A stretch of DNA of 64,000 nt from Adenophora triphylla var. japonica (taxonomy: Eukaryota > Streptophyta > Magnoliopsida > Asterales > Campanulaceae). The notes beneath the pieces are model-generated. The model did no database searches and had not been told where the DNA came from. It was given only the letters and a program-made list of their open reading frames with translations. Both the position numbers and the translations under genes were made by a program. Positions within the stretch are counted from its first letter, which is position 1. Every line of letters starts with the position of its first letter. Below are positions 12,086 through 42,385 of the stretch, piece by piece. Where the stretch lies: the NCBI GenBank assembly GCA_022495995.1, contig JAFEMH010000165.1, forward strand, positions 558,001 to 622,000, written 5' to 3'.

Positions 12086-13829
12086 TGAATAATATAATAT
12101 TATTATGATACTCATTTGATTTCATTTTATTAATATTATAATATTATAATATTATTATGACACGGAGAGAGTATATAGATAGCCATAGTAGACTATTAGT
12201 TTATGTCACTGGTTGTTGCCTTGATTGATCATGGCCTAATTTTATTCTGGTCAAGACTACGTTTCACTTTGGTAAGTGGGAGCCAAAATATTTTTAAATT
12301 TATTTCTTCAACTTTAAGGAATAATTTTTACTTCCTTCTAAAAAAAAAATTAAAATATCTTCTTGCAAGTTCATTTTTTTTTCAAGAATAAGGCTTTACA
12401 ATTGCACAACTATATATTTGTCTATTCAAGAAATGAGACTATATTTTTTGGATAAAAAATATGTGAGAATTGGTGTAATATTAGGGATTTTTTGTATAAT
12501 TTAAATGTTTTTTTTTTTATGTATGTGTATTAAAAGATATGTGAGAATTGGTGTAATATTAGAGATTTTTTGCTTGAAAATATGATGAAATAAAGCATGA
12601 CTCACTAAATTGTATGAGCTTTTTTGTTATAAAAAAAAACAGTCAGTCCATACAATTTTCGACGCAATTTTCATCATGAGTCATCTATAAACAATCTCTA
12701 TGTGCTTTAATAAAGGGACATAACTACGTATATTCGACCCCTCTTATCTCAACGTAGATGACAGAGTTTGTGGCACTGTGATAATGTGTGATAATATGTT
12801 GTTTTTGTATTAGAGAAATTTTGAGAAATAAATCATGAATTAATTCTAAAAAATAAAATAAAACCAAATTTTTTTAATGAATTCATTATCACTTAACAAA
12901 TAAGTGAGCAATGTGAAAAGGCAACTTTAGGTTTGTTGAATTAAGTTGGAGAACTATCTATCTCTCATTGTATTTGATTAATTAATATACTCCACTTAAT
13001 GGTGAATCAATTATTTAAATTAAATAATTAGATTACACGTCATATTGAGCTGGTTTTTCAAAATAAAAAATAAAATATTAATATTTTGAGTATTACTCAC
13101 AATTGTTTAGGACCAGGGGAACTTTAAGTGGGTGGGTGGGAGGGTTGGTGGTGTGGTTATCTTTCTTTTTAAAGAAAATTGTTTCCTAAGCTGTGAAATA
13201 ATTGTCCATCTTTGGTGTTGTGGTTATCTTTAGTTAGAGATAGTCACCACTTGATTTAAAATTTTAATAGGGTTGCACACGAGAAGAGATTTCAAACATT
13301 TCACATTATCAGGCATGTCAAATTTCAAACATGTCATATTTTTGGATATGTCAACATAGTGCAATTTTTGCACTAAAACCCGAGTAATACTATAAGCTGG
13401 CGGAATCAAATTCGGGACATTCCGCTCTTATATCACGCGCGTTAGAGTTATCGCTTAATATAAAAGGTTGAGGTGTCAGATCGTGACTCAACAGTGTATA
13501 TCAAGCTTTTACATCTATTTTTATTATTTATGTTTTCGTTTTTTATATTTGTAAGACTAGACTTTAGTCTATATTTTTAGCGAAAATAAGATAATTGGAA
13601 ATAATAAAAAAAAAAAAAAAAAAAAAGACAATTTTTTTTAAAAGTAAGTCTACGAAAAAAATTGTTTTCATTCATTATATAAAAAGTCATAACAATAACA
13701 TTATGGAATCACGATTTTTATAGCATAAAATTAGACATATGGAGTCCATAAGTAGTAAACTGAGAGTTTCAATACCAGGAAATTATAGGTTTTAAAATCT
13801 CAATTTATTTATAAAAAATAAGAGTTGGT
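12086..13829. other. AT-rich intergenic DNA, no gene recognised
   Basis: Low-complexity A/T runs occur (for example 13605-13626) with a few direct repeats, such as GTGAGAATTGGTGTAATATTAG near 12462 and 12541. I see no coding or RNA gene. Confidence 0.6.
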
Positions 13830-13837
13830 CTGCCGAA

Positions 13838-13868
13838 AAACGCGTTTCTCCATCTCTGTATGGAGAAA
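13838..13868. repeat. Left terminal inverted repeat of the MULE with hairpin
   Basis: AAACGCGTTTCTCC begins the conserved end. TTTCTCCAT (13845-13853) and ATGGAGAAA (13860-13868) form a stem with a six-base loop. It corresponds to the right end at 26411-26446. Confidence 0.7.
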
Positions 13869-14037
13869 TGGATTTTTTAATATATTCAAAAATCGGCAAC
13901 CATTTGAATTAAACCGGTTCTATTGTCTAAAAACCTACAAAAACCTACATAAATTCAATATTTGCGTAAATACACACACAGACACACTACAACGATCACA
14001 GCAAATGGAGACGAGCAGGACAGTTCAATCAAAATGA

Positions 14038-14610
14038 ATATCCAGAAACAATACAGAAATCGATATTGATTATATCAGGTAATATGAATCAAATCAACAA
14101 CTACTGTTTTTAATTTTAATCAACGTTTATTGTACTAAGGTCGATTGTTATTGTACATTTCCAGAGATTGAAGTACGTAATTTTGGATCTATCCATCAAT
14201 AGTATAAATGGAAGCTCAATTACATGACATATATTCAGAAATATCACAAATCGATATTCTCCAGGCTACAGGTTTGATCTTAATATAACTTACATATCCA
14301 GAAATTGATTATGGATTTGGTCAATTCTATGTCCAGAAACCTTCAAAATGAATATCCAGAAATCTTCAAAACGAATATTCAGAAACTACCAAATTGAATA
14401 TCCAGAACTACCAAATTGAATATCCATAAACACACAACTGACCATGTCCAGAAACAATAAAATGTATATCCAGAATGTTCCAAATTGAATATCCAGAAAC
14501 TTTAAAATGGTAATGTACTAGGCCAAGGGATATGGCCAAGGTCAATGCTATATCCAGAAACTACAAAAATGAATATCCAGAAACCTTCAAAATGAATATC
14601 CAGAAACTAA
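14038..14610 (+). repeat. TATCCAGAA motif array, left subterminal and first intron of transposase
   Basis: About a dozen copies of TATCCAGAA or one-base variants (TATTCAGAA, TGTCCAGAA) lie around the first transposase exons, many about 22-23 bp apart. They point inward from the left terminus. A GGCCAAGGGATATGGCCAAGG segment sits at 14521-14541. Confidence 0.85.
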
Positions 14611-17373
14611 CTAACTACTGCCTTTTCTTGCAGAATCATATTCTTTTATTGATTTAGAATCTCAAATTCAACAACCTACAGATCCTGAAACTGGGTTACA
14701 AATAGGTTTTCTCTCTTAACTTTATTGACATATTGATTTAGAATTACTGATTTCATATAACATTATTCTTTTTAATATATTTTGTGTGTGCGTATCGTAT
14801 GTGAGGACCCTAATATTGATATAAGCAAAAATTTGCTGGGAACAAAAGCAAAGACATGGGAGGAATTGTACAAACTGTATAAACTTCATGCAAATGCACT
14901 AGGATTTAGAATTAAGTTGTCAACAAATCATGTTTCAAAAAAGACTTCAAGGATATTAGACAAGCTATTCCGTTGCTCATGTGAAGGAGTTACCAGATCA
15001 ACCCAAGAGGAAAACATCAGTGTTCCATCACCAGCTGATATTAATGAAGTTCAAATTCCTTCACCAGTTGAACAACTTGATGTTACCAAAAAACAACAAA
15101 AGAGAAGGAGAAATTACATAAAGAGGACTCAATGTAAGGCTCTTTTGAGGGCAAAATTGCTAAAAGAGGAAGATATGTATGTTGTTGACCGCCATGTTAC
15201 AGAGCACAATCATCCAATGACAAGGACAGATTGGAACCATTTGAAGCGTAGTGAAAGGTGTATCTCAGAAAATCAGGGTGAAATAATTGAAATAATGGAA
15301 GAAGCTGGTATAAAACCAACTGATGGATATAGTCTTTTGGTAAAAGCAGCTGGTGGAGAGGAACATGTTGGTCACACAAAGAAAGATCATATCAATTTTG
15401 TTCAGAAACTTAGAATAGAAAAAATTGAAAATGCTGATGCTCAGAATGTTGTTGATAGGCTTTTTGAAATTTCACTGGAAGATCGAGGGTTCTATTTTAA
15501 AATCAAATTTGATGATGAAGGAAGACTTGGGGCTATATTTTGGAGAGATAGCATGATGAAGGAAGATTACAAGCTCTATGGAGATCAGGTTATATTTGAC
15601 ACAACTTATACTATAAATAGATACAACCTTATTTGTGCCCCAATAGTTGGCATTAATAATCATTGGAACACTGTCATGTTTGATTGTGCTTTCATAGCAA
15701 ATGAAAAAAAAGAAACATTTGTGCAGTTTGCTTAAGCGGTTTAGAAAATCAATGGGAGGCAAAGAACCAAAAACAATATTTACAGACCAAGACCAAGCAA
15801 TGTCAAATGCAATTGAAGAGGTATGATTATAAAATTCCATAACCAGTTCTTTTATAATATTTCTTATCTAGTATTTTATTTGTGCTATATAGTTCTAACA
15901 ATATTTCAGATGTGCCTTAACTTTACCCAGATGTCATTGGTGTTTATATTCAGAAACTACCGTGATTGAATATCCAAAGAGCTAGTCATTCTAAAGTTTA
16001 CGGTTATTCAATATAAAGTTTCTTGGATATTCATTGAGTAGTTTACGGATATTCATTTGGTAGTTTCGGATATTTAATTGTTAGTTTTACGGACATGGCC
16101 AAGGCCAAAGCCATGACAAAAAATTGGTCAATGAAAATTTATTGTATGTTAATATCCAGAAGCATATAATGTTAATATCCAGAAACTTTATTATAATACA
16201 GGTATTTGAAGGGCGGACGAGGCATATGCTATGTTTATGACACATCCAACAAAATGTTGTATCCCACTTTGGACAATTGAAGACAAATGAAGATTTTAAA
16301 AAAGAATTTGATCATTGTTTAATGGGATGTACCAGTGAGGATGAATTTGAAAGATGTTGGGAGTCAATGCTCGTGAAATACAATCTCGTTGAAAATTCCT
16401 GGTTCAAGCGTCTATATGGACTACGGGAGAAATGGTGCACAACTTTAAGCACAAATTTCTTCTCAGCTGGAATATTGTCATCCCAAAGAAGCGAGAGCAC
16501 AAATCATGCCTTTTGTTTCAAAGCAAACAGGAACACATCCCTCACTCAGTTCTTTGACATATTCAATGAAACAGTTAAACGTTGGAGGAATACTGAACAA
16601 GAGAAGGAATTTCAAGCATCAATCTTAGTCCCTCAACCAGACATGTATGGTGGTATCATAAAACAAGCAACTCAGGTATACACACCACAGATATTCAAGT
16701 TCTTTGAGATTGAGGTAAAATGAGCTTTTCCTACTGTATACAAATTTGGAGATGAAAGTGATGAAGATTGCAGATTCATACATGTTGCTCATGAGAAGTA
16801 CCCAGATAAATATGAGAGTGTACTCTTTGTTAGGAATGATGAAAGTGTAACAGTTGTATGCAGCTGCAATCAGTTTACTACAGTCGATTGGTTGTGCTTT
16901 CATTGCATAAAGGCGCGAATTTGTCAAATGTCACAAGGATACCGAGATATCTACATTGAAAAAGGTGGACAAAGATGGCAAAAAGATGTATGGGACAAAG
17001 TCTATCAAGGAAAAGATAATACATCAATAGAGAAAAATGAATTCATTCCCTGGAAACAAAAGATGGCAATGAAATACCACAATCGATGATGGCTTGTCAT
17101 GAAAACGAGTGCAAAAAGATCTTGGAAGATGGGTTCAATAGAGACTCACTTCTTATACAACAATTGTTGTCAGAAAATCAACAGGATTGTAGATCTACGA
17201 CAAGTGTTAATGATAGCGTTGGTTCAGAAAGTATAACAAGTGCTCCAGCTGTGATTGATCCAATTCGTGCAAATACAAAGGGCGGAAAACGAAAGCTAAA
17301 GACAAAGTTTGATAGAAGAAAGTCAATCACTGATGAGTTTGGTTCAAAAACACCAAATGAACATTTGATTTAA
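14208..17373 (+). pseudogene. MULE transposase (FAR1 DNA-binding, MULE, SWIM), inactivated
   Basis: The likely first exons are 14208-14271 (MEAQLHDIYSEISQ...) and 14634-14705, joining in phase. The main exon covers 14782-15819 and a later exon runs from 16202. The main exon has a FAR1-like N-terminus (TWEELYKLYKLHANALGFRI, RCSCEG, DRHVTEHNHPM) and then the MULE transposase core with the first catalytic Asp in QVIFDTTYTINRYNL. The second Asp lies in TIFTDQDQAMSNAI. A SWIM zinc finger (CSCNQF...LCFHC) is at about 16860-16905. Disabling changes are a one-base frameshift near 15730 (frame resumes LLKRFRKSMGG), TGA at 16238-16240 where the family has Trp (CL*HI), TGA at 16721-16723, and a stop/frameshift near 17087. 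The protein remains readable to 17373 only in pieces. The acceptor of the 14782 exon is unclear. It would cut and paste the element in an intact relative. Confidence 0.88.
15945..16200. repeat. TATCCAGAA motifs, both orientations, in the transposase intron
   Basis: The intron 15820-16201 holds degenerate copies in both directions (TATTCAGAAACTACC, TTTCTTGGATATTC, TATCCAGAAGC, TATCCAGAAACTTT), plus GGCCAAGGCCAAAGCC near 16097. Confidence 0.75.
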
Positions 17374-17457
17374 TAGTTTTTAGATTGAAGTACAATTTAT
17401 TAAGTTGACTACTTAAATATTTTATATACAGATATTTGATGTTTTTATGTTCAGAAA

Positions 17458-19385
17458 TGAAAGAAATTGATATCCACAAATTGCTTATTTTCTTTGGCCT
17501 TGACCTTGATTTTGTGCTTAGCCTTGGCCTTGGCCATGGCCAAGTCCAAGGCCAAGGCCAATTCTATATCCAGAAGTATGAGAATGTATATCCAGAAATG
17601 TGTTAGGTGCATATCTAGAAATTGCTTATTGGCTTTGGCATTGAACTTGATTTTGTCCTTGGCCTTGGCCTTGGCCTTGCCATGGACAAGTTGGCCTTGG
17701 ACTTGTCATGGATTTGGCCTTGGCCTTGGCCATGGCCAAGTCCAAGGCCAAGGCCAATTCTATATCCAGAAGTATGAGAATGTATATCCAGAAATGTGTT
17801 AGGTGCATATCCAGAACTTGATTTTGTCCTTGGCCTTGGCCTTGGCATGGGCCATGGCCAAGTCCAAGGCCAAGGCCAATTCTATATCCAGAAGTATGAG
17901 AATATATATCCAGAAATGTTTTAGGTGCATATCCAGAAATTGCTTATTGGCTTTGGCACTTGATTTTGTCCTTGGCCTTGGCCTTGGCATGGGCCATGGC
18001 CAAGTCCAAGGCCAAGGCCAATTCTATATCCAGAAGTATAAGAATGTATATCCAGAAATGTGTTAGGTGCATATTCAGAAATTGCTTATTGGCTTTGGCA
18101 TTGAACTTGATTTTGTCCTTGGCCTTGGCCATGGACTTGGCCTTGGCCTTGCCATGGACAAGTTGGCCTTGGACTTGTCATGGATTTGGCCTTGGCCATG
18201 GCCAAGTCCAAGGCCAAGGCCAATTCTATATCCAGAAGTATGAGAATGTATATCCAAAAATGTGTTAGGTGCATATCCAGAACTTGATTTTGTCCTTGGC
18301 CTTGGCCTTGGCATGGGCCATGGCCAAGTCCAAGGCCAAGGCCAATTCTATATCCAGAAGTATGAGAATATATATTCAGAAATGTGTTAGGTGCATATCC
18401 AGAAATTGCTTATTGGCTTTGGCACTTGATTTTGTCCTTGGCCTTGGCCTTGTCATGGGCCATGGCCAAGTCCAAGGCCAAGGCCAATTCTATATCCAGA
18501 AGTATGAGAATGTATATCCAGAAATGTGTTAGGTGCATATCCAGAACTTTATTTTGTCCTTGGCCTTGGCCTTGGCATGGGCCATGGCCAAGTCCAAGGC
18601 CAAGGCCAATTCTATATCCAGAAGTATGAGAATGTATATCCAGAAATGTGTTAGGTGCATATCCAGAACTTGATTTTGTCCTTGGCCTTGGCATGGGCCA
18701 TGGCCAAGGCAAGGCTAATTCTATATCCAGAAGTATGAGAATGTATATCCAGAAATGTGCTAGGTGCATATCCAGAAATTGCTTATTGGCTTTGGCACTT
18801 GATTTTGTCCTTGGCCTTGGCCTTGGCATGGGCCATGGCCATGGCATGGGTCATGGCCAAGGCCAATTCTATATCCAGAAGTATGAGAATGTATATCCAG
18901 AAATGTGTTAGGTGCATATCCAGAACTTGATTTTGTCCTTGGCCTTGGCCTTGGCATGGGCCATGGCCAAGTCCAAGGCCAAGGCCAAGGCCAATTCTAT
19001 ATCCAGAAGTATGAGAATTTATATCTAGAAATGTGTTAGGTGCATATCAACAACTTGATTTTGTCCTTGGCCTTGGCATGGGCCATGGCCAAGTCCAAGG
19101 CCAAGGCCAATTCTATATCCAAAAGTATGAGAATGTATATCCAAAAATGTGTTAGGTGCATATCCAGAAATTGCTTATTGGCTTTGGCATTGAACTTGAT
19201 TTTGTCCTTGGCCTTGGCCTTTCCATGGACAAGTTGGCCTTGGACTTGTCATGGATTTGGCCTTGGCCTTGGTCTTGGCCATGCCAAGTCCAAGGCCAAG
19301 GCCAAGTCCAAGGCCAATTATATATCCAGAAGTATAAGAATGTATATCCAGAAACAATCTTAATTTATATCCAGAAATTATCAAA
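17458..19385 (+). repeat. Composite tandem array of TATCCAGAA motifs and GGCCTTGG/CCAAGGCC palindromes
   Basis: About twelve units recur, each with CCAATTCTATATCCAGAAG, then two more TATCCAGAA copies, then a G/C block GGCCTTGGCCTTGGC...CATGGCCAAG...AAGGCCAAGGCC that can fold on itself around CCATGG. Unit length alternates between about 120 and about 200 bp, depending on whether a TTGCTTATTGGCTTTGGCA insert is present. Overlapping open frames on both strands (rich in Ala-Leu, Gly-Gln or Lys-Ala dipeptides) are translations of the repeat and not genes. The array lies between the transposase 3' end and the minus-strand small genes. Confidence 0.92.
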
Positions 19386-19494
19386 TTAAACAGGAAATAT
19401 AAAATTTAAGAAAGAAAACAAACTAAGTAAATTATTTTAAATACAATTACAAAAAAAAAAAAACCAACAATAACAACATCAACATCCCCTAATT

Positions 19495-19866
19495 CCTATC
19501 ATTGACTTCTGTCATATGCTGCTCTAGTGCGACATGCTATAGCATGGATATTTCTCCATACGCAGAAATAGATCCAAAATGAATAGCATGCGCAAATAGT
19601 TGGTCCCAAGACAAGGTTCTTGTTGGAAAGCTCCTAGGGGGGCAGAATGGGCATTGCAATTTATTTTCCCCATTATAGAGGGGAAAACGCCCATTTTTGA
19701 TTGATCGCTTGTGTCTTGCAACTTTTTGCTCCATGGTTAACTCTCTGTTAACCCTAGGCGGAACATCCACATTATTATCAACATATTCAACCTCCTCAGG
19801 TTGAAACCCTACATCAGAATCAGAACTTTCGTTCTGCTGAGCTTGGTTGTTGTTGTTGTTATTCAT
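19495..19866 (-). CDS. Small zf-XS-like zinc-finger protein A (stop codon inside the domain)
   Basis: A single-exon frame of 109 codons runs from ATG at 19866 to TAG at 19537-19539. After an Asn-rich and acidic N-terminus comes RHKRSIKNGRFPLY, then LQCPFCPPRSF, then LFAHAIHFG. This matches the layout of the zf-XS finger of SGS3/IDN2-type RNA-silencing proteins: a basic lead, CPFC, and a later HA-x-x-x-G. If the TAG is read through, the frame continues HVALEQHM to a stop near 19495. That resembles the final helix of the domain, so the TAG is probably a nonsense change. A TATA box (TATATAAAT, reverse of 19921-19929) lies about 55 bp upstream of the ATG. Function is unknown; an RNA-binding or silencing-related role is inference. 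Gene B at 20674-21009 is a diverged paralogue with the same promoter. Confidence 0.6.
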
Positions 19867-19918
19867 TTTGAGAAATTTGATTTATTTTTTGTTTTGATGG
19901 TAGGAGTGGTGGTGTATG

Positions 19919-20070
19919 GTATTTATATAGGCTGAGTACTTAAATTCATTGAATTCAATGAATTCAATGAATTCATTAAATTCAATGAATTCAATGCACT
20001 TACCAACTGTACACATTTATTACTCTTTGAATTCAATAGTAAGTTTGAATGCTTTTTGACCATTAAAGAC
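19919..20070 (-). promoter_or_regulatory. Promoter of gene A, with AATTCAATG repeats
   Basis: On the minus strand the block GTACTCAGCCTATATAAAT contains a TATA box. Upstream are repeated GAATTCAATGAATTCAATG palindromic units (19945-20000) and a stretch (about 20000-20070) nearly identical to 21118-21205 upstream of gene B. Confidence 0.65.
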
Positions 20071-20109
20071 AATGAATTCAATGCACTTATCATTATTTAT
20101 TACTGTTGA

Positions 20110-20330
20110 AGGAGGTATATCCAGAATCAATCAAAATGTATATCCAGAAACTATCAAAAAGTATATCCAGAAACTTACAAATGTATATCCAGAAACTTTC
20201 AATATGAATATCCAGAAACTATCAATTTTATATCCAGAAACTGTTAAATTGAATGTCCAGAAACTATCAAAATGTATATCCAGAAACTACCATATTGAAT
20301 ACCCAGAAACTTTAATTGGCCTTGAACTTG
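20110..20330 (+). repeat. TATCCAGAA motif array between the two small genes
   Basis: About nine copies lie in a row at mostly 22-23 bp spacing, for example TATCCAGAAACTATCAAAAAG. The array ends with a short TTGGCCTTGAACTTGATTTTG block shared with the large array. Confidence 0.88.
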
Positions 20331-20339
20331 ATTTTGGAC

Positions 20340-20640
20340 AAGTGTTTCAAGTTAGGTTTTCCAAGTTGAGTAATAAAAAAACAAAAACAGTCACGGATTC
20401 AATAGTTATCCCAACTAGTACTGCTTCATTTTGTCCATAAGCAATAGTGCCAAATTTCAAACAAAAACAGTCACGGATTCAATAGTTAACTACATTTCAA
20501 AAAAAAAAGTCATGGATTCAATAGTGCCAAATTTCAAACAAAAACAGTCACGGATAACAATAAATCACCTATATTACAAAATACACCAAACACAACAATA
20601 TTAAAAACAGAATTTAGTACCATTAAACACTACCACTACC
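20340..20640. repeat. Short direct repeats (AACAGTCACGGATTCAATAG), otherwise nothing seen
   Basis: Three or more copies of AAACAGTCACGGATTCAATAG or close variants occur between 20380 and 20555. No gene is recognised. Confidence 0.7.
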
Positions 20641-20673
20641 ACCTGCTCCTTCATCGCCTACATTGTCATTCAA

Positions 20674-21009
20674 TTAGTTTTTTGGATCATATTCATTCAA
20701 AATACATTCCAAATACATTTCCAAAGCCTTGTGGTGAATCCTAGCAGCTTCATCAATGTTGTGAGCGTTGCCAAACTCATGAGCATGATTGACTATCCCC
20801 ACATAATCCTTATCCCTACAATTGTGTTCATTACATGGCTCCAATGGACAACGAAATGAGGGAGTTCCATTTGCAGAAGAAGGCTGCAAAACAACAAGAT
20901 GACCATAGATAAATTTTTGGTAGTACACCATGTATATTTCCCAACTTTTGTCATCATTTGAATCACCCAAAGTTGGCTCCCCAGAATTTCCCTTGCCTTT
21001 GTTCATCAC
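20674..21009 (-). CDS. Small zf-XS-like zinc-finger protein B
   Basis: A single exon of 111 codons starts at ATG 21009. The protein reads YYQKFIYGHLVVLQP, then FRCPLEPC, then YVGIVNHAHEFG, then AARIHHKALEMYLE. That is the order found in zf-XS domains: an aromatic/basic lead, a CP-x-x-x-C knuckle, a HA...G segment, and a KA-x-x-x-YL helix. The knuckle has one extra residue relative to CPxC. The domain is complete here, unlike in paralogue A. A TATA box (reverse of 21071-21082, CTATATAAATTT) lies about 65 bp upstream. In known plant proteins this domain occurs in SGS3 and the IDN2/FDM family, which act in RNA silencing and RNA-directed DNA methylation. Whether this protein interferes with or mimics them is not known from sequence. 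Confidence 0.65.
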   Translation of the reverse strand: MMNKGKGNSGEPTLGDSNDDKSWEIYMVYYQKFIYGHLVVLQPSSANGTPSFRCPLEPCNEHNCRDKDYVGIVNHAHEFGNAHNIDEAARIHHKALEMYLECILNEYDPKN

Positions 21010-21067
21010 TAGAAAAAATTATTAAAGGTAGAATTTTTCTTGAACTTGATGTATATGCTTGCCTTTG

Positions 21068-21205
21068 GACAAATTTATATAGGCTGAGTACTTGAAACCA
21101 GTCAAAAAAGTTGGTCAATGAATTCAATGCACTTACCAACTGTACACATTTATTACTCTTTGAATTCAATAGTAAGTTTGAATGCTTTTTTGATCATTAA
21201 AGTAT
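21068..21205 (-). promoter_or_regulatory. Promoter of gene B, duplicate of that of gene A
   Basis: AGCCTATATAAAT on the minus strand and the adjoining AATTCAATGCACTTACCAAC, GTACACATTTATTACTC and TTTGAATTCAATAGTAAG blocks match the region upstream of gene A almost base for base. Confidence 0.65.
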
Positions 21206-21640
21206 ATCCAGAAACTATCAATTCTATATCCAGAAACTATCAATTCTATATCCAGAAACTATAAAAAAGTATATCCAGAAACTATCAAAAAGTATATCCA
21301 GAAACTTACAAATGTATATCCAGAAAATATCAATATGAATATCCAGAAACAATCAATTTTACATCCAGAAACTCTTAATTTGAATATCCAGAAACTAACA
21401 AAATGTATATCCAGAAACAATCATATTGAATACCCAGAAACTTTAATTGGCCTTGAACTTGATTTTGACCTTGGCCTTGGCCATGGCTTTGGCCTTGTCA
21501 TTGTCATGGCCAGAAACTATCAAAATGTATATCCAGAAATTATAAAAATGTATATCCAGAAACTTACAAAAATGTATATCCAGAACTACCATATTGAATA
21601 TCCAGAAACTATCAATTCTATATCCAGAAATAAATTTCTC
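21200..21640 (+). repeat. TATCCAGAA motif array downstream of the Ulp1 gene
   Basis: Roughly sixteen copies occur with 22-23 bp spacing, broken once by a GGCCTTGGCCATGGC block at 21471-21500. Confidence 0.88.
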
Positions 21641-21855
21641 CACTAAAGTACATTAATTACATCACTAAACCAGATTCCTAATTACATAATTACATTTACA
21701 TACATCTATGAATCTTGTACATTACTTTGTTCTTCTGTTCTTTTTGTTTTCTTCTCTTTTTCAAAAGTGTTTGCCTGAATCATTAACTTATGCTTATCTT
21801 TGTTCAATTTACTAAGCAAAAGTGTTGAAAGAATTTCAGCTCGTAGACGAATCCT

Positions 21856-24800
21856 TTATTTATCCTACAAAGTAAAAAAAAAAATTGTTAAAACATATAT
21901 ATAAAAACTCATATAATATAAATATGAATAAAAAATTTTTTAATAGTACCTGACATAACTCAGGGCATGAGTACTTTGATCCTTGAAAATCATTCATCTC
22001 AGACATCACATAAACTCCACAATCATGGTTAACATCATTTTCTTTAAGAACCCAATCACATTTCATGTATTCAAATTTATATGATTTTTTGGCTTCAAAA
22101 TCATTATAACATGGATGATCAATCTTCTTCAAAAAAGATTTCATAGGCACATACTGAAAAAATTTTAAGTATAAAATATTAGATAACCAATGAAAACAAA
22201 AATGAAAAATATAAAACTGCTTTCATAAGTTTCAAAACATATACCAATGCTTTCGTAAGTTTCACAACTTCAGCTGCTTTTGCTTCATTCATTGAAAGGT
22301 TGTCAAAATAGTGAATGGATTTTGAAGCCATGTTGTACACATATAGTGTAAAGTGCCCATTTGAACTGCTTCCCTTAAAGTATGGGATAAAAAACTGCAA
22401 AAAAGTATATCCAGAAATATATTAGGTGACTATCCAGAAATTTCTTATTTGTCTTGGACATGGCTAAATCCATGGCATTGGTCATGGCATAGGCTTTGGC
22501 CTAGGCCTTGGTCATGGATATATTCAGAAATACCATAAAGTATATCCAGAAATACTATAAAGTATATCCAGAAATTACTATGTCCATGGCAAGGCCTTGG
22601 CCTTGGCCTAGGCCTTGGTCATGGATATATCCAGAAATACCATAAAATATATCCAGAAATTACTATGGCCATGGCATAGGCCTTGGCCTTGGCCTAGGCC
22701 TTGGTCATGGATATATCCAGAAATACCATAAAGTATATCCAGAAATACCATAAAGTATATCCAGAAATTACTATGGCCATGGCATAGGCCTTGGCCTTGG
22801 TCATGGATATATCCAGAAATACCATAAAGTATATCCAGAAATACCATAAAGTATATCCAAAAATTACTATGGCCATGGCATAGGCCTTGGCCTTGGCCTA
22901 GGCCTTTGTCATGGATATATCCAGAAATACCATAAAGTATATCCAGAAATACCATAAAGTATATCCAGAAATTTTCAATATGATATCCAGAAATGTATTG
23001 AGAAATGAAAATACATACCAGATCTACTTCTTTCAGATCCATTAGATTCCCATCGACATTAACAACATTTTTCCAATACAAAAAAGTTTGAAGCATTTCT
23101 GGAGCACCAATACGAGCATTGCAAGAACGTTTCGCCCAAGTAGCCTGTTGATATAAATGATAACAATATCTTAAAGAAATTTCATGGATATATACACTGC
23201 AATCGATATATACTTATAAGTTGTTGAAAAAAGTAAATTTACAGAATGGTCAACACCAAACATAAATCTCTTCATTACACCCTTTTTATGCTCCAGCTTG
23301 TTCAACAACATTACCCAAACATTCACAATTACACATGTGATATCTGTATCTTCTCTCATACTCAAAATATCGTCTGCTTCCAGTCCAATGAGATCATTAA
23401 ACTGAAAAAAAACACTGAAAAAAAATAATATTAGAATTTGAATACCATAATAAATTTCAACTGTAATAATATTGAAATAAAAACGGGATATTACTTTTTT
23501 GACGCTGGAAGAATCAATTTTGAGAAGCAATAATCAACCACTTCCATCTTTAGCTTTGGCATACCAATCATTACTTCCTTATTCTTCACCATAAATTCAG
23601 ATGAAAGAATAATCTCACCATTAACAGGTTCCAAATCCACTTCATCTAACATCTTATCAAACTTCTCACCATTAACACAATGTTGAGAAATTTTACCAAC
23701 CAAATTATCAATATCACCCAAAATTTGTGAAGAAAATTCTTCTTCCACGTCAACTTCCTTGATAACAGACATAGGCTCAATCGTTGGTTGTTTAAACAGA
23801 TGGGAATCAGTAACTTGATCCTCTGTATTAAGCCTAGCTATTTGATGCTCTGCAGATTGATCTTCAGTTGGTTGAGCAACATTGGTAACATCTTGATCCC
23901 CATAATGCTCATGCAGATATCTGTCATCAAAATGCTGAAATTTATCAACATTATCATCAGACGCTGTACGCTCAGATTCTTGACTCTGTGATAAAATCCT
24001 AAATGTTGGCAATGGTCCAACCTTCCCTTTCTCCTTAAGCTCAACTTTTGAAGTTTTCAACTTATCAATAATATCATCAATATAATCAAAAACCTGACTT
24101 CCCCAAGGTTGACTATCACCAACCAAATCCTCCTCTTCAACAGATCCTTTCTCAACATCATCATTATTAACTTTTTCTTTCTCCTTCTCAATTTTTGAAA
24201 TCCTTGCAATATGAGCATTGATAGCAACTTTAATATCATTGTGAAATATTTCCAGTGACTCTTTAACAGAATCCAAAACTTCTGGAACATTTTCACTTGC
24301 AGGATGATTTGTAGGATGACTTACATCGTCAACAAAAGGAGCAGCATCAATCAGCAATCCAATTTGTCCTTCATCTAAATCATCCTCATAGCTCGTAATA
24401 GGATAAACATTATCCAAATAAAGTACTCCACCCCAACCAATTTTAGCTTCATTCCCAGCCCTGACAGAAATTTTCTCTTGAGTCCAATGTTGAATCAAAG
24501 GACGTGCAGTTGGTTCATGTTTACGCAAATATGGAAATCTATGAAAGTAAGCTATTAAAAGAATTGCCACACAACCACTACAACACCTCACTTTACTGCC
24601 AGAAGAAGCCTTAAACTTCCTAACACCATCAGATATCTTATTCAATACAAACTGGCACCAATCAAACTTTTTAATTTGAGTAACATCTTCAACCAATGCC
24701 AACAAAGAACAGTCAACAGCCTTTGTTACTACTGGTGCAAGAAAGAAACTGACAGCAAACAAGACATAGAGGCGTTTAAACTCATCACCTCCATCAGGTA

Positions 24801-26229
24801 GTTCTTTGATGCGTTCACCAAGCAGACGGGCTGGAATACCATCTTTAACTTTCCCAAAAGTATTTTTGTATCGTGCGCTCAACTCTTTGTCAATGCCTAT
24901 TGAACAATTTATCTTCTCTTTTTTTAAATTCCTAGGAAGACAAAGAATATCAAAAACATCATTTGTTGTTATATAATACTTGTTATGTTTGATTCTCTGA
25001 ATAAAGCTTCCCGAATCAAATCTTTCCACAAGATATTCCACAATTCCCCCTGTTGGCAATCTATTCAACTTAAGTTCTAATAGCCCACCAAAACCTATAG
25101 ATTTAACATCTTCTTTCTGAGCAGGGGTTAAACCAAGATCAATAAGCCTTTCTGGGACACAACAATGTTCAAATGCCCGTTTCTTACCACTTTCAACCAC
25201 ATCCACTGTTGATTTCTTATTTGACTTCTTAACTTGACCTTCACTTAATTGATTCTTCTTATGCTTCTTACTACCTTCACTTTTATTTAAATCTGCAGCT
25301 ACAAAACATAAAAAAAAAAAAAATCAAGAGGATATCCAGAAATAAATGAAATGAATATCCAGAAACATACAAATGAATATCCAGAAACTATCAAAATGCA
25401 TATCCAGAAACTACACAAATGAATATCCAGAAACTACACAAATGAATATCCAGAAACTTTCAAAATGATATCCAGAAAATATCCACAAATGAATATCTAG
25501 AAACATACAAATGAATATCCAGAAACAAGCAAATGAATATCCAGAAACAAACAATTGAATATCCAGAAACTTTCAAAATGATATCCAGAAAATATCCACA
25601 AACAATTAAAAAGGTTCTGGATATCAATTAAAAAGGTTCTGGATATAAATTAAAAAGCTTCTGGATATCAATTAAAAAGGTTCTGGATATCAATTAAAAA
25701 GGTTCTGGATATAAATTAAAAAGCTTCTGGATATCCTTTCAAAAGGTTCTGGATATCATTTCAAAAGGTTCTGGATATCATTTCAAAAGGTTCTGGATAC
25801 CCGTTTCTCCATGGGCCAAGATCATGGCCAATACAAAATTTCTGGATATCCTTTCAAAAGGTTCTGGATATCCTTTCAAAATGTTTTGGATATCCAGAAC
25901 ATTGAATGTTGATATCCAGAATTTCAGAATTCACTCAATTGCTCATCAGAACTCTAAGAAACATCAGTGGGCAATTAAACATGACGAAAATTATGAATTA
26001 AAAGCCAAGAGACAATACTAAGTAGAATGGTAAATCGTTAAACATAAAACACAAAATCGATACACAGAAATTGAAAATTTCAAACTAAAACACATTGTTA
26101 AAGTCATATACAGATGAGTATGCTTAATATATCCAGAAATTTATGAAAATTCGAACCAAAACAATAATAACATGTGAACTCACAATTGGATTTTCGCTTG
26201 CTCCTGATTTCATCAACTGAATTTCCCAT
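21856..26229 (-). CDS. Ulp1/C48 cysteine-protease-domain protein of the MULE (VANC/Kaonashi-like)
   Basis: Seven exons, read by eye on the minus strand, join in phase: 26229-26184 (MGNSVDEIRSKRKSN), 25298-23495, 23414-23243, 23144-23019, 22394-22245, 22153-21950 and 21864-21856. They give about 836 residues. The N-terminus is lysine-rich, possibly a nuclear signal. Residues about 50-310 (LGLTPAQKEDVKSIGFGGLL, YYITTNDVFDILCLP, FAVSFFLAPVVT, RCCSGCVAILLIAYFHRFPYL) follow the pattern of the DUF1985-like or Ulp1-associated region of plant transposon proteins. An acidic linker follows. The C-terminus is an Ulp1 fold with catalytic His in NGHFTLYVYN, Asp in HYFDNL and Cys in HDCGVYVM. The last exon meets TAA at 21858-21856 just after the core, though the frame stays readable (RIRLRAEILSTLLL...) to 21706. 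So a C-terminal truncation of about 50 residues is likely. Known relatives act in desumoylation or, as VANC, in anti-silencing. The role here is inference. Confidence 0.82.
22400..23000 (+). repeat. TATCCAGAA and GGCCTTGGCCTAGGCC array inside an Ulp1-gene intron
   Basis: The intron 22395-23018 is almost wholly repeat. About five units of roughly 115 bp each hold two or three TATCCAGAAATACCATAAAG copies and a palindromic GGCCTTGGCCTAGGCCTTGG block flanked by CATGGCCATAG. The minus-strand open frames here are repeat translations. Confidence 0.9.
25325..25915. repeat. Subterminal TATCCAGAA array that switches orientation near 25,612
   Basis: From 25329 to about 25605 the motif reads TATCCAGAA on the plus strand. 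From 25613 on it reads TTCTGGATA in AATTAAAAAGG- or TTTCAAAAGG-spaced units of about 20-22 bp. It occupies the first intron of the Ulp1-domain gene (25299-26183). Confidence 0.9.
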
Positions 26230-26410
26230 AATTCCTTCGATTGCTACTGATTTCGCTTGCTACTGATTTCTGGATATAGTTTCTGGATATTCAACTGGAG
26301 TTCGGTTGCTACTGATTTCGTTTTGGTATTAAAATTAGGGCAAACGGGTTTTAATTAAACCGGTTCGTTAAACGTTCAATTAAACCCGTTAATAAACCGG
26401 TTAAGAAACA

Positions 26411-26446
26411 CGTTTCTCCTTAGCGCTAAGGAGAAACGCGTTTCTC
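26411..26446. repeat. Right terminal inverted repeat of the MULE with perfect palindrome
   Basis: 26411-26438 reads identically on both strands (CGTTTCTCC...GGAGAAACG around AGCGCT), followed by GCGTTTCTC. It corresponds to the left end at 13838-13868. Confidence 0.75.
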
Positions 26447-26524
26447 ATTAGATTTTGGCAAAAAATAATGAGTTGGTGTTATAAAAAATTAGTTTTCTTT
26501 TTAATTTTAAAGAAAAATCATTTT

Positions 26525-26935
26525 TACACTGGCACTTAATAATACATACACTGACACTCTTTTTCACTGACATTTTTTTTATACTAACACTGACACTTTT
26601 TTACCCTACACTGACACTTAATAATATATGCATGCACTGACACTCTTTACACATGCATTTTTTTTTATACTAACACCTGCACTTTTTACACTAACATTGA
26701 CACTTTTTTACACTGACACTAACACTTTTTTTACACTGACACTTATTAATATATGCACTGACACTTTTTTACACTAACACCGACACTTTTTACACTAACA
26801 CTAACATTAACATTTTTTTTTACACTGACACTTATTAATACATGCACTGACACTTTTTTACACTGTTACCTAATAATACACGCATTGACACTTTTTACAC
26901 TGTTTTTTTTACACTAACACTGACACTAACGTGTG
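26525..26935. repeat. CACTGACACTTTTTTA minisatellite
   Basis: Irregular tandem units of ACACTGACACTT(T)n with interspersed TTAATAATA(C/T)ATGCA segments. The array begins about 65 bp outside the right end of the MULE and is non-coding. Confidence 0.85.
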
Positions 26936-32695: not shown

Positions 32696-34263
32696 TAAAA
32701 AAAACACAATCTTTACATTAACAATTTCTAATATTCCTATCATCCTAAAAATATAGTTTCATTTTTGCTTAAAAATATAGTTTTATTTTAATTTTAATGA
32801 TCAACGTAACTGGAATTTACTAATTATTTATAAGAAATGATTTACTCTTATAAAAATTTTAAATTTTATTATTGATAACATTTTTTTAAAAGCAAACAAT
32901 ACATTAATTACATTGATAATGTTGCAGAAAATGGCGCTCCACACGGGTTGGAACCTCATCATCACAAAGATGAGGATTTCTACTAATACGAACAATCGTG
33001 AACAATTTGTTCGTCGCAATAAAATTATCTAATACATTTGAAAAAGTAATGTATAACGGTTATGCATTACTTTTTCAGATAAAAAATAAAGAAAAATAAA
33101 ATAACTTTAAAAAATCCATTTCTTTTACCTATTTTTGTGCATTTCCTACTCAACTTACATAGAATAATTATTTGCATGAAATTTTAAGATGTGTTATTAT
33201 AAATACTAGATTGACTCCCGTGCGATGCACGGGACATTACTATATATTCAAAAAATAAAAAATCTAACTAAAATAAACCAAAAACTCAATTCGCTTATAC
33301 ATTATAAAAGACTTCCTTAAAGGCTACATTGTCAGTACATAAAAATTAGAAATCAATAAAATAGAAATAAAACATAAATCATAATGATTATGCATTTCTC
33401 TGTATACAATTCTGTAGTTTTTATCAATTTAAAAAATTAAATAAAACAGACGAACATGTTTATCATATACGAAATAAGTTATTGAAATCAGTTTAAAATG
33501 TGAAGATTGGAAATCTAGTAAAAAAAAAGGTGATATTTTATTTCGTTTTGATGAAGAGAAATTTTGAAATAAGAACAAAAGATTTAGTCATACCAACAGG
33601 ATAGTACAGTTATCTAATAAGAACTAATATCATTATTTTTCAAATGAAAAATTTATATTAACTCATGATCGTACATCTAAAAAATTATGTCATATTGATT
33701 TACATTAACTCATTATGAACATAATTATGATATTTATTTTCAATCTAACTTATTTAATAGTTAGAAGAAAAATAAACACTAACAATTTCGTTAAATGAAA
33801 TTTTTTTTGGCCAAACCTCCCAATTCCTCATAAAACCCAACTCACTTCTTACTCCCCCTCCTTTAAAATACCGATTTATACTATCTTTATTTCTTCTAAT
33901 ATTGACATAAAATTAAATCAAAATTTTATAACTGATGGGCATCTTCCCCGATATTCGTCTTTATAAATACACAATTTTTTGAGACGAATACAAAAATCGA
34001 TAAATTTATTAATACTTTATTTACAATGTTTCAAATACTTTTTTAAAAAAATAAATAAATTAATTGTTTGGTATATAAGCACAAGAACCATATTACACCA
34101 TCTAACTTATTAAATAGATATATATTATTATTATATAAAATAACCATTTATACTTTATAAATACACAATCGTTTTGTTTATAAAAATTCAACAACATTCC
34201 AACTCATCATCCTAGACCCCACCACGTTTATTTTATTTTATATTCTTTATTTTTATTATTAGT

Positions 34264-34294
<31 letters not shown>

Positions 34295-35290
34295 TATTTA
34301 TCATTTATAATTAAAAATAAATACTTTACACTTATTTAATTTTTACAAAAAATATATAGAGAAATAAAAGACGAATTAACAAAGGATAATTAAGAAATTT
34401 ATATTTAAAAAAGAGGAGTTTTTTTTCTCTATCCAAATCAAATGAAAGAAGTCTCTATTTAAAGAGAAAGAATTTATGAATTTTGGTGTAAAAAAATTTA
34501 AATAAAAATTAATTTATTATAAAATAATTGAGGGTAAAGAAATCGGTAAAAAAAAATTGGAAATTAAGCAAGCCAATCAACGGGAGACATGTGTCAAATT
34601 CTTTAAAAAAAAAAAAAGGAAAAAAACCCTACATACACGCACTGTTGTCGCCCGTGCGTCACGCCCTAGAGAAATGTCGAAATTGTCTTTCCACAGATGG
34701 ACGACACATATGTCCAATGTTAAAAAAAAAAAAAAAAAAAAAAACCTAATGAATTCACGCGCCTCTTTAGGCCCGTATAATTTACGGCTCTCATAATTTT
34801 AATCAATAAAAAAATAAGAAATAAAATAAATCATTTCTTATACACTTTATTTGGGTAAATATTAATAAAAGTAATTTAATTTATTTCATAAAAATTGAGA
34901 TTATAACTCATTTTGTTACTTGATATTTTTTTCTAATGTATTTTCGCGTGTGTGCACGTATGTATTTTTAACATGATGTACAAAGCTTCTTAAATTAGCG
35001 ACACACATGTTAGTAATGTTTTTGCTCTCCATAGAATTTCAATCCTAACCAAGTAACTACAAATGTGCCCTCATTTATTTTAAAACTTATGCAAGTCTTT
35101 TTATATATAGAGAGAGATAGCGATTTATAAATAATTATTTTATACTTATTTTTAAAAATATATTATATTCACTTGTATTATGTGTTTTAAATTAATGAAA
35201 AAATTAAACCAAGAAACTAATCTAATTTTGAAGTAAAATATTATTGTACTGATTTTCTCATTTCTCAAATAAATGTCAAAAAAAATATTC

Positions 35291-37400
35291 AACAATTGTG
35301 TGAAATGAAAAAAAATTCCCCAAACCCTCCATTCCCTCATCTAATTTTGGAGTAAAATATTATAGTAAAAAAAATTAATTTATTATAAAACAATTGAGGT
35401 CAAAGGAATGGGAAAAGAAAAAAATTCGAAATTCAAGAAGCCAGTGGAACACCGCCAAGTGTCCCAACCAAAAAAAAGGAAAATATCTCTGCGTAAATGC
35501 GCCTCGGTCGACGCAAATATGACACGCGCCAAATTTTCACCCTATCACTGCATGCCACGACAAATTTACTTCAACTATTTTTAGTTATGCCACAATATGA
35601 AATGACTTAAACTTTAATCAAAATTTTAAAAATGATGGTCATCTTTCCCGTTATTCGCTTTTATAAATACACAAATTTTTTAGACGGATAGATATTCAAC
35701 AAATTTATAAATAGTTTATTTACTATGCTTCAAAGTATTTTTTTAAAAATAATTTAATAAATAGATTGATCTATCGAAATAAAATAAACCCAATAATCTA
35801 TTACCCCATCCAATTAATCATCCTATACCCAATCAGTTTTATTTAATTTTATATTATTTATTTTCAAGATTAGTAAAATTATTAATATTATTATCATTTA
35901 TAATTAAATAAAATATTTCACACTTAATTACTATTCACTAAAAATATATTAAAAAATAAGAAAGGAAAATTAACAATGGGTAATTAAGAAAGTTATATTC
36001 AACAATTGTGTTTAATGAAAAAAAATTCCCCAAACCCTCCATTCCCTTATCTAATTTGGAGTAAAATATTATAGTAAAAAAAATTAATTTATTATAAAAC
36101 AATTGAGGTCAAAGGAATGGGAAAAGAAAAAAATTCGAAACTCAAGAAGCCAGTGGAACGCCGCCAAGTGTCCCAACCAAAAAAAAAGGAAAATATCTCT
36201 GCGTAAATGCGTCTCGGTCGACGCGAATACGACACGCGTCAAATTTTCACCCTATCACTGCATGCCACGACAAATTTACTTCAACTATTTTTAGTTATGC
36301 CACAATATGAAATGACTTACACTTTAATCAAAATTTTAAAAATGATGGTCATCTTTCCCGTTATTCGCTTTTATAAATACACAAATTTTTTGGACGGATA
36401 GATATTCAACAAATTTATAAATAGTTTATTTACTATGCTTCAAAGTATTCTTTTAAAATAATTGAATAAATAGATTGATCTATCGAAATAAAATAAACCC
36501 AATAATCATATTACCCCATCCAACTAATCATCCTAAACCCAACCAGTTTTATTTAATTTTATATTATTTATTTTCAAGATTAGTAAAATTATTAATATTA
36601 TTATCATTTATAATTAAATAAAATATTTCACACTTAATTACTATTCACTAAAAATATATTAAAAAAATAAGAAAGGAAAATTAACAATGGTTAATTAAGA
36701 AAGTTATATTCAACAATTGTGTTAAATGAAAAAAAATTCCCCAAACCCTCCATCCCCTCATCTAATTTTGGAGTAAAATATAATAGTAAAAAAAATTAAT
36801 TTATTATAAAACAATTGAGGTCAAAGGAATGGGAAAAGAAAAAAATTTGAAACTCAAGAAGCCAGTGAAACGCCGCAAGTGTCCCAACAAAAAAAAAAGG
36901 AAAATATCACTGCGTAAATGCGCCTCGATCGACGCGAATAGACACGCGCCAAATTTTCACCCTATCACTGCATGCCACGACAAATTTACTTCAACTATTT
37001 TTAGTTATGCCACAATATGAAATGACTTACACTTTAATCAAAATTTTAAAAATGATGGTCATCTTTCCCGTTATTCGCTTTTATAAATACACAAATTTTT
37101 TAGACGGATAGATATTCAACAAATTTATAAATAGTTTATTTACTATGCTTCAAAGTATTTTTTAAAAATAATTGAATAAATAGATTGATCTATCGAAATA
37201 AAATAAACCCAATAATCATATTACCCCATCCAACTAATCATCCTATACCCAACCAGTTTTATTTAATTTTATATTATTTATTTTCAAGATTAGTAAATTT
37301 ATTAATATTATTATCATTTATAATTAAATAAAATATTTCACACTTAATTACTATTTACTAAAAATATATTAAAAAATAAGAAAGGAAAATTAACAATGGG
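35291..37400. repeat. Tandem 710 bp modules in Helitron A
   Basis: AACAATTGTG occurs at 35291, 36001 and 36711, exactly 710 bp apart. The intervening sequence is nearly identical, each unit carrying CGCCGCCAAGTGTCCCAAC, a CTCGGTCGACGCGAA block and an AT-rich tail. Confidence 0.85.
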
Positions 37401-38294
37401 TAATTAAGAAATTTATATTTAAGAAATAGAATTTTTTTTCTGTGTCCAAATCAAAAGAAAGAAGTCTCTATTTAAAGAGAAATTTTTTTATGAAATTTGG
37501 TGTATAATTTTTTTTAAAAAAATTAATTTATTATAAAATAATTGAGGTCAAAGAAATAGTTTTTTTTTTTAAATATGAAATCCATCAAGCCAATCAAAGG
37601 GCGCCAAATACACAAGTTTTTTAGACGGATATATATTCAACAAATTTATAAATACTTTATTTACTATGCTTCAATTTTTTTTAAAAAAAATAAATAAATA
37701 AATTGTTTGATCTATCGAAATAAAATAAACCCAATAACCATATTACCCCATCCAACTAATCATCCTATACACCAACATTTTTATTTAATTTTATATTCTT
37801 TATTTTCAATATTAGTAAAATTATTAATATTATTATCATTTCTAATTAAATAAAATATTTCACGCTTACTTACTTGTTAGTAAAAATAAATTAAAAAATG
37901 AGATAGGAAAATTAACAAAGGATAATTAAGAAAATTATATTTTAAAAAAAGGATTTTTTTTCTGTGTCCAAATCAAATGAAAGAAGTGTCTATTTAAAGA
38001 GAAAAAAAATTATGAATTTTGGTGTAAATTTTTTTTAAAAAAATAATTTATTATAAAATATAGGAAAATTAACAAAGGATAATTAAGAAAATTATATTTA
38101 AAAAAGAGAATTTTTTTCTGTATCCAAATCAAATGAAAGAAGTGTCTATTTAAAGAGAAAAAAAAATTATGAATTTTGGTGTAAATTTTTTTTTTAAAAA
38201 ATTAATTTATTATATAAAAATTGAGGTCAAAGAAATAGGAGTGTTTTTTTAAATTTGAAATCCCTCCAACCAATCAGAAGGTGACACGTGGCAC

Positions 38295-38326
<32 letters not shown>

Positions 38327-41300
38327 GGGAAAATGCCGCAATGACTCGCCAATGTCGGCGAGTGTAGTACACTCTCCAGTAAAATGACGAAAATGCCCCT
38401 CATCACACGGGCGACAAGTGTCCTAAGTCATTTAAAAAAAAAAAAAAAAAAAGAAAACTCAACCAATCTTACCTCGCCACATGCCATTTCAGCCCAATTT
38501 TTTTCCCTTTTGCCACCGCATGAATTTACCAAAATACCCGTTATTCGCTTTTATAAATACACAAATTTTTTAGACGGATAGATATTCAACAAATTTATAA
38601 ATAGTTTATTTACTATGCTTCAAAGTATTTTTTTAAAAATAATTTAATAAATAGATTGATCTATCGAAATAAAATAAACCCAATAATCTATTACCCCATC
38701 CAATTAATCATCCTATCCCCAATCAGTTTTATTTAATTTTATATTATTTATTTTCAAGATTAGTAAAATTATTAATATTATTATCATTTATAATTAAATA
38801 AAATATTTCACACTTAATTACTATTCACTAAAAATATATTAAAAAATAAGAAAGGAAAATTAACAATGGGTAATTAAGAAAGTTATATTCAACAATTGTG
38901 TTTAATGAAAAAAAATTCCCCAAACCCTCCATTCCCTTATCTAATTTGGAGTAAAATATTATAGTAAAAAAAATTAATTTATTATAAAACAATTGAGGTC
39001 AAAGGAATGGGAAAAGAAAGAAATTCGAAACTCAAGAAGCCAGTGGAACGCCGCCAAGTGTCCCAACCAAAAAAAAAGGAAAATATCTCTGCGTAAATGC
39101 GTCTCGGTCGACGCGAATACGACACGCGTCAAATTTTCACCCTATCACTGCATGCCACGACAAATTTACTTCAACTATTTTTAGTTATGCCACAATATGA
39201 AATGACTTACACTTTAATCAAAATTTTAAAAATGATGGTCATCTTTCCCGTTATTCGCTTTTATAAATACACAAATTTTTTGGACGGATAGATATTCAAC
39301 AAATTTATAAATAGTTTATTTACTATGCTTCAAAGTATTCTTTTAAAATAATTGAATAAATAGATTGATCTATCGAAATAAAATAAACCCAATAATCATA
39401 TTACCCCATCCAACTAATCATCCTAAACCCAACCAGTTTTATTTAATTTTATATTATTTATTTTCAAGATTAGTAAAATTATTAATATTATTATCATTTA
39501 TAATTAAATAAAATATTTCACACTTAATTACTATTCACTAAAAATATATTAAAAAAATAAGAAAGGAAAATTAACAATGGTTAATTAAGAAAGTTATATT
39601 CAACAATTGTGTTAAATGAAAAAAAATTCCCCAAACCCTCCATCCCCTCATCTAATTTTGGAGTAAAATATAATAGTAAAAAAAATTAATTTATTATAAA
39701 ACAATTGAGGTCAAAGGAATGGGAAAAGAAAAAAATTTGAAACTCAAGAAGCCAGTGAAACGCCGCCAAGTGTCCCAACAAAAAAAAAAAGGAAAATATC
39801 ACTGCGTAAATGCGCCTCGATCGACGCGAATACGACACGCGCCAAATTTTCACCCTATCACTGCATGCCACGACAAATTTACTTCAACTATTTTTAGTTA
39901 TGCCACAATATGAAATGACTTACACTTTAATCAAAATTTTAAAAATGATGGTCATCTTTCCCGTTATTCGCTTTTATAAATACACAAATTTTTTAGACGG
40001 ATAGATATTCAACAAATTTATAAATAGTTTATTTACTATGCTTCAAAGTATTTTTTAAAAATAATTGAATAAATAGATTGATCTATCGAAATAAAATAAA
40101 CCCAATAATCATATTACCCCATCCAACTAATCATCCTATACCCAACCAGTTTTATTTAATTTTATATTATTTATTTTCAAGATTAGTAAATTTATTAATA
40201 TTATTATCATTTATAATTAAATAAAATATTTCACACTTAATTACTATTTACTAAAAATATATTAAAAAATAAGAAAGGAAAATTAACAATGGGTAATTAA
40301 GAAATTTATATTTAAGAAATAGAATTTTTTTTCTGTGTCCAAATCAAAAGAAAGAAGTCTCTATTTAAAGAGAAATTTTTTTATGAAATTTGGTGTATAA
40401 TTTTTTTTAAAAAAATTAATTTATTATAAAATAATTGAGGTCAAAGAAATAGTTTTTTTTTTTTTAAATATGAAATCCATCAAGCCAATCAAAGGGCGCC
40501 AAATACACAAGTTTTTTAGACGAATATATATTCAACAAATTTATAAATACTTTATTTACTATGCTTCAATTTTTTTTAAAAAAAATAAATAAATAAATTG
40601 TTTGATCTATCGAAATAAAATAAACCCAATAACCATATTACCCCATCCAACTAATCATCCTATACACCAACATTTTTATTTAATTTTATATTCTTTATTT
40701 TCAATATTAGTAAAATTATTAATATTATTATCATTTCTAATTAAATAAAATATTTCACGCTTACTTACTTGTTAGTAAAAATAAATTAAAAAATGAGATA
40801 GGAAAATTAACAAAGGATAATTAAGAAAATTATATTTAAAAAAGAGGATTTTTTTTCTGTGTCCAAATCAAATGAAAGAAGTGTCTATTTAAAGAGAAAA
40901 AAAATTATGAATTTTGGTGTAAATTTTTTTTAAAAAAATAATTTATTATAAAATATAGGAAAATTAACAAAGGATAATTAAGAAAATTATATTTAAAAAA
41001 GAGAATTTTTTTCTGTATCCAAATCAAATGAAAGAAGTGTCTATTTAAAGAGAAAAAAAAATTATGAATTTTGGTGTAAAGGTTTTGTTTTAAAAAATTA
41101 ATTTATTATATAAAAATTGAGGTCAAAGAAATAGGAGTGTTTTTTTAAATTTGAAATCCCTCCAACCAATCTGAAGGTGACACGTGGCACAAAGTAAAAA
41201 AAAAAAAAAAAAAAAGGGAAAAATGCTGCAATGACTCGCCAATGTCGGCGCGTGTAGTACACTCTCCAAGAAATGACGAAAATGCCCCTCATCACACGGG

Positions 41301-42344: not shown

Positions 42345-42385
<41 letters not shown>

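Follow-up and report, generated by a model that had tools for sequence, protein, structure and literature searches.

A Mutator-like element of 12,640 bp, at 13,830-26,469 of the window (the whole 64-kb stretch of DNA that was analysed), combines a FAR1-type transposase gene, a predicted minus-strand gene with an Ulp1-like C-terminus, and tandem arrays of one short motif spread over its noncoding DNA. We put forward, with a probability of roughly 0.55, that the minus-strand gene and the arrays form a sequence-specific anti-silencing system resembling the VANC systems of Arabidopsis VANDAL elements, here within a FAR1-type MULE. If this is true, the Arabidopsis VANDAL strategy also operates in an element whose transposase is of the kind from which the FHY3/FAR1 regulators derive. 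The element would then offer an independent protein-motif pair for learning how such proteins read DNA, as well as a further candidate for the targeted removal of DNA methylation.

Ends and Class of the Element

The element is delimited by a direct repeat, by inverted ends and by the sharp limits of the motif. Its outline and transposase are as follows.

13822-13829 (no strand): left copy, GAGTTGGT, of a likely 8-bp target site duplication (direct repeat search)
13830-26469 (no strand): whole Mutator-like element
13835-13880 (+): left inverted end, imperfect over 46 bp, containing ACGCGTTTCTCC (local alignment of the ends)
14776-17373 (+): FAR1-type MULE transposase, broken in this copy (Pfam, tblastn with relatives, open frames)
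26401-26446 (-): right inverted end (local alignment of the ends)
26470-26477 (no strand): right copy, GAGTTGGT, of the likely target site duplication

The inverted ends span about 46 bp, are imperfect and both contain ACGCGTTTCTCC. The GAGTTGGT pair is a likely rather than certain target site duplication, since an 8-mer with at least four G/C was common to two random 60-bp stretches of the window in 1.2% of draws. An earlier note on this DNA had set the ends at 13830..26459; the left one stands, and the GAGTTGGT copies at 13,822 and 26,470 shift the right one to 26,469. The same note's identification of a MULE is borne out by the Pfam FAR1 (2.9e-14) and MULE (4.1e-7) domains of the transposase, together with the inverted ends and the 8-bp direct repeat.

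The transposase reading frame changes between 15,720 and 15,728, with relatives aligning on either side, and an in-frame stop ends at 16,723, through which the alignments of relatives continue; the transposase of this copy is therefore broken. A CxC...CxH pattern that may represent a C-terminal SWIM zinc finger, without a Pfam match, is visible at 16,724-17,089. The window is plant DNA: among the named relatives of its transposase are proteins of Primulina, Chenopodium, Silene, Bienertia, Spinacia, Saponaria and Phlomoides. A search of viral contigs returned no transposase relative. Table 1 of PMC6446971 assigns FAR1 and an 8-bp duplication to group 36, the plant Jittery elements, and a 9-bp duplication to group 45, VANDAL; FAR1 is also listed there for half of a plant-containing Hop sub-group. 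The Jittery-type features present here are an N-terminal FAR1 domain with a MULE domain and the 8-bp GAGTTGGT repeat on both sides. The transposase is FAR1-type and, judged by its domains, would be Jittery-like, with a Hop alternative standing beside Jittery. Domains likewise set it apart from the VANDAL clade (FAR1 and MULE domains, an 8-bp rather than a 9-bp repeat). Given this FAR1-type transposase, the analogy with VANDAL elements concerns function and layout rather than a common transposase clade.

The observed/expected ratio of CpG in the element is 0.27, with TG and CA in excess, as against 0.69 in the left flank and 1.03 in the right flank, and the element spacer at 17,400-19,400 has no CG at all. 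This depletion suggests a scar of long past methylation, and it weighs against an anti-silencing role by indicating that this very copy was methylated for long.

Distribution of the Motif

The remaining genes of the element and the clusters of the motif TATCCAGAA are arranged as follows.

14232-14605 (+): motif array, 13 sites with at most one mismatch, mostly within a predicted transposase intron
16153-16184 (+): pair of motif copies within a predicted transposase intron
17419-19379 (+): spacer array whose units, about 122 bp long, hold GGCC-type repeats and at most three motif copies each
19537-19866 (-): small ORF 1, 109 aa, without Pfam match
20118-20308 (+): motif array upstream of small ORF 1, 9 sites with at most one mismatch
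20674-21006 (-): small ORF 2, 110 aa, without Pfam match
21205-21629 (+): motif array upstream of small ORF 2, 16 sites with at most one mismatch
21856-26229 (-): predicted VANC-like gene, 836 aa, Ulp1-like C-terminus
26229-26184, 25298-23495, 23414-23243, 23144-23019, 22394-22245, 22153-21950 and 21864-21856 (-): predicted exons of the VANC-like gene
22408-22992 (+): array of 17 motif sites (at most one mismatch) within intron 4 of the VANC-like gene, interleaved with GGCC-type repeats
25333-25921 (both strands): array of 28 motif sites (at most one mismatch; 16 forward, 12 reverse) within intron 1 of the VANC-like gene
26130-26289 (no single strand): three motif copies flanking the first exon of the VANC-like gene

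Exact TATCCAGAA occurs 106 times in the 64-kb window (93 forward, 13 reverse), 105 times within 13,830-26,469 against once, at 5,014, in the remaining 51,360 bp; when the element was simulated 100 times with an order-2 Markov model, it held 0.99 copies on average and 4 at most. With up to one mismatch there are 129 sites inside the element and 19 outside, where 14.0 were expected. The earlier note's confinement of the motif to the element is thus upheld by the exact copies in the window, save for the one at 5,014, while its "well over a hundred" copies describes the 129 sites with up to one mismatch rather than the 105 exact ones. It had also placed the motif in introns and spacers, in agreement with the absence of all 105 exact copies and all 129 sites from 5,393 bp of masked coding DNA (the VANC-like exons, both small ORFs, and the transposase at 14,776-15,822 and 16,202-17,373, these last two approximate). 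A one-mismatch site at 14,232 may fall within a possible first transposase exon, read by eye and lying outside the mask. Restriction of the motif to the element and its absence from the masked coding DNA both favour the anti-silencing interpretation.

Clusters occupy the predicted transposase introns, the 2-kb spacer, the DNA upstream of each small ORF, and two introns (1 and 4) of the VANC-like gene. Among spacings of less than 60 bp between forward neighbours, 54 of 63 are 22 or 23 bp, approximately two helical turns. Orientation is forward, save for 12 of the 28 sites in the intron-1 cluster and two of the three that flank exon 1 of the VANC-like gene. The targets of VANC21 are laid out in the same manner (introns of the element's own gene and upstream DNA, mostly one orientation, tandem repeats; PMC5735166), a parallel that again supports an anti-silencing system. 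The word itself is another one, unlike the Arabidopsis motifs, as the earlier note had proposed: VANC21 binds YAGTATTAY and VANC6 targets carry AGTTGTCC and AGTTGTAC (PMC5735166), and each of these has 0 copies in the element.

In an alternative scenario, the arrays would be sites of the transposase, with the FAR1-type protein binding TATCCAGAA for the transposition complex or for the control of element genes. A FAR1 DNA-binding domain is indeed encoded in the same element as the arrays, and each element end contains one ACGCGT, which shares CGCG with CACGCGC, the word bound by FHY3/FAR1 (PMC6000157). We consider this scenario improbable: CACGCGC differs from the motif and has 0 copies in the element, and the motif copies sit mostly deep inside, in introns and spacers, with the outermost exact ones 209 bp (left) and 180 bp (right) away from the element ends.

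A triple-motif pattern searched in viral and prokaryotic records gave 1 viral and 3 prokaryotic matches, where DNA of 42-54% GC contains short repeats that hold 3-6 copies of the motif per record; these were judged unrelated to the element.

Differential Conservation of Core and Linkers

Six arrays with 22-23-bp units, all within one element copy, were each wraparound-aligned to their own consensus. The core ATATCCAGAA carries mismatches at 10 of 542 bases, as against 112 of 654 in the linkers, about one ninth of the linker rate (Fisher p ~1e-20, with units that are non-independent). Among the 22-23 possible windows the core is the lowest in five of the six arrays and the second lowest in the other, and none of 100,000 sets drawn in a random-offset control was as low. 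The array of 122-bp units shows the same tendency, with 14/420 mismatches in the core and 104/1,349 in the rest (p = 0.001). The conserved stretch comprises the whole of ATATCCAGAA. Being far better kept than its linkers, the word has the appearance of a sequence under selection, for which protein binding is the simplest explanation; such conservation is what the anti-silencing interpretation would expect of a bound site. The comparison of core and linkers is a possible route to protein-motif pairs from the sequence of a single element.

Several observations count against this reading, although selection for protein binding is still the simplest one. The word was chosen for being common, which favours the core, and the random-offset control answers only part of this bias. 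Anchoring on the linker instead (51 sites, with the opposite bias) gives agreement of 57-94% for the linker columns, as against 49-80% for those of the core. Several arrays have linkers in common by descent and are hence partly dependent. Additionally, the core is the commonest 10-mer (with one tie) in five of eight regions, and ranks fifth in the spacer, where GGCC words are more numerous than the core, third in intron 4 and sixth at the right end.

Slippage and unequal exchange could in principle have produced the arrays as passive minisatellites, an origin compatible with their tandem repetition and with the linkers that several of them share. Even divergence along the unit would then be expected, however, rather than the deficit of mismatches in the core, and one core is combined with many linkers (the 129 sites have 81 distinct 14-bp flanks downstream). 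We therefore regard a purely passive origin as very improbable.

Another possibility is that the arrays recruit a host transcription factor that drives the element genes, for instance a MYBS-type MYB reading TATCCA. This hexamer is a sugar-response element bound by MYBS proteins, and some arrays do lie upstream of genes and in early introns. Conservation nevertheless extends beyond TATCCA to all of ATATCCAGAA, GAA included, and large arrays are also found downstream, in the spacer, and within intron 4, so that we hold recruitment of such a factor to be rather unlikely.

The VANC-Like Gene

The gene model is predicted with seven exons and six GT-AG introns, is long and open, and is found in the same copy whose transposase is broken, a combination in favour of an anti-silencing function. 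The earlier note had described a minus-strand gene with an Ulp1 domain and a DUF1985-like N-terminus. The first half of this description persists as a candidate: the Peptidase_C48 profile matches the C-terminus at E = 9.9e-4 and 19.4 bits, below the cut-off of 20.7, and the catalytic-type residues H730, D747 and C811 are in place, a match that also speaks for the VANC analogy. The His-Asp distance is 17, and the residue six before C811 is Asn. In Ulp1/C48 proteases Gln is usual at this position, and a characteristic His-Asp distance is likewise expected. The second half fails in Pfam, which gives zero DUF1985 matches with E up to 10, a range in which the HMMER filter drops most matches above ~0.1, so that a remote kinship may have escaped it. 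This result counts against a VANC-like system. A sub-threshold hint of a Plant Mobile Domain is seen in the N-terminal half (E = 0.03, 13.9 bits, cut-off 34.9).

A search with the whole protein scored 7,997 candidates, none at E <= 0.001, and one with residues 80-300 scored 1,398, none at E <= 10; the search requires shared five-letter words, and distant relatives could escape it. As a control, the same resource yields 50 transposase relatives among 944 candidates, the best 94% identical, and so does cover plant proteins. This failure to find a relative among proteins sharing such words is a further point against an anti-silencing protein. Solved structures offered no meaningful match, with no SUMO-protease chain among those matched to the protein, and NCBIfam gave zero matches. 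For 276 aa from the N-terminal half, AlphaFold run without an alignment reached a mean pLDDT of 34, too low for the prediction to be of use.

These results bear on the suggestion that gene and arrays are unconnected, the former being a captured protease-like gene and the latter being read by something else. ULP sequences are reported from MuDR-like and Jittery-like MULEs and from CACTA elements, and do not form one clade (PMC2528002), and the N-terminal region has no Pfam match to a known DNA-binding family; both agree with such a capture. Yet two of the largest arrays lie within the gene's own introns, and the VANC proteins directly exemplify a protein that is linked to its motif. We thus view the lack of a connection as an unlikely explanation.

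Comparison with Known Systems and Proposed Mechanism

The VANC21 and VANC6 motifs form tandem arrays in noncoding element DNA, where the proteins cause loss of DNA methylation (PMC5735166). The present element resembles these VANDAL systems in having a second, accessory gene of minus-strand type, a short motif that is repeated in tandem and in the same orientation within introns, spacers and upstream DNA, and the specificity of this motif to the element, here within the 64-kb window (PMC5735166, PMC10398659). It differs from them in its motif, its FAR1-type transposase, its 8-bp duplication, its Ulp1-like C-terminus and the DUF1985 domain that Pfam did not find in it. KAONASHI and the Ulp1-carrying VANC genes of non-TIR MULEs also have an Ulp1 domain in a MULE accessory gene, although theirs are Arabidopsis VANDAL/MuDR-type elements (PMC13317346). 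That such Ulp1-carrying genes too act on motifs of their own element kind, according to the same review (PMC13317346), is in line with an anti-silencing role here. The closest parallel in gene content is with the Jittery-like MULEs of melon and grapevine, which have a Jittery-like transposase and a ULP sequence downstream; in contrast to the present case, motif arrays and an anti-silencing role go unmentioned in the sections of PMC2528002 that deal with them. The presence of ULP genes in Jittery-like MULEs has been published before (PMC2528002), and what appears new here is the motif arrays and their differential conservation. The gene-motif pairing, or the motif, may perhaps have been described already in work on anti-silencing across eudicot MULEs.

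Under the anti-silencing interpretation, the 836-aa protein would bind ATATCCAGAA along the noncoding arrays, and binding would cause loss of DNA methylation there. The dense clustering of the motif would give specificity, as reported for VANC21, such that host silencing marks would be removed from copies of this element family only. At the arrays, the Ulp1-like part would free silencing proteins of SUMO or of a mark related to it; alternatively, in view of the Asn six residues before the Cys, it might now be a mere scaffold. Such a system would function like VANC, yet we do not class it as one: DUF1985 was not found, the transposase is FAR1-type and the repeat is 8 bp. More tentatively, and with rather less confidence than we attach to the anti-silencing role, we envisage a portable cassette, a binding gene with its own noncoding arrays, that moved between distant MULE branches or arose in them independently; here it would pair a FAR1-type element with ATATCCAGAA, and the second word CCAAGGCCAA would be read by another small protein of the element.

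Small ORFs, Second Word and Flanking DNA

The two small ORFs align weakly with each other (score 42, as against a mean of 26, a 95th percentile of 35 and a maximum of 46 in 500 shuffles). Upstream of them lie duplicate stretches, at 19,982-20,336 and 21,115-21,467, with 87.6% identity. AlphaFold without an alignment gave a mean pLDDT of 54 for small ORF 1. A zf-XS (SGS3-like) reading, drawn from CPxxC...HA..FG segments noticed by eye, was rejected, with zero matches in Pfam and only the weak alignment between the two ORFs. The EPSPS cassette of Amaranthus palmeri groups truncated SGS3 copies with an Ulp1 gene and plant-mobile genes (PMC5240378); a link between it and the small ORFs would be a guess.

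A second word, CAAGGCCAA, has 67 copies in the element vs 1 in the flanks and may be the target of a second protein. Of the 13 exact-motif clusters, several of them in one spacer, 11 have WGGCCW within 100 bp. In the 122-bp units, 3.3% of the core bases are mismatched, compared with 4.8% in the GGCC part and 9.8% in the AT-rich linkers. The CAAGGCCAA family is interleaved with the TATCCAGAA arrays at 17419-19379 and 22470-22973.

Just beyond the right end of the element, at 26521-26896, there is a separate minisatellite whose units carry ACACTGACACT. Further into the flank, 33192-50349 contains large near-identical duplications, such as 33,192-37,745 vs 45,076-49,613 (97.7% over 4,566 columns). 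The flanks contain 16 CACGCGC words, 15 of which fall within 29,237-50,141.
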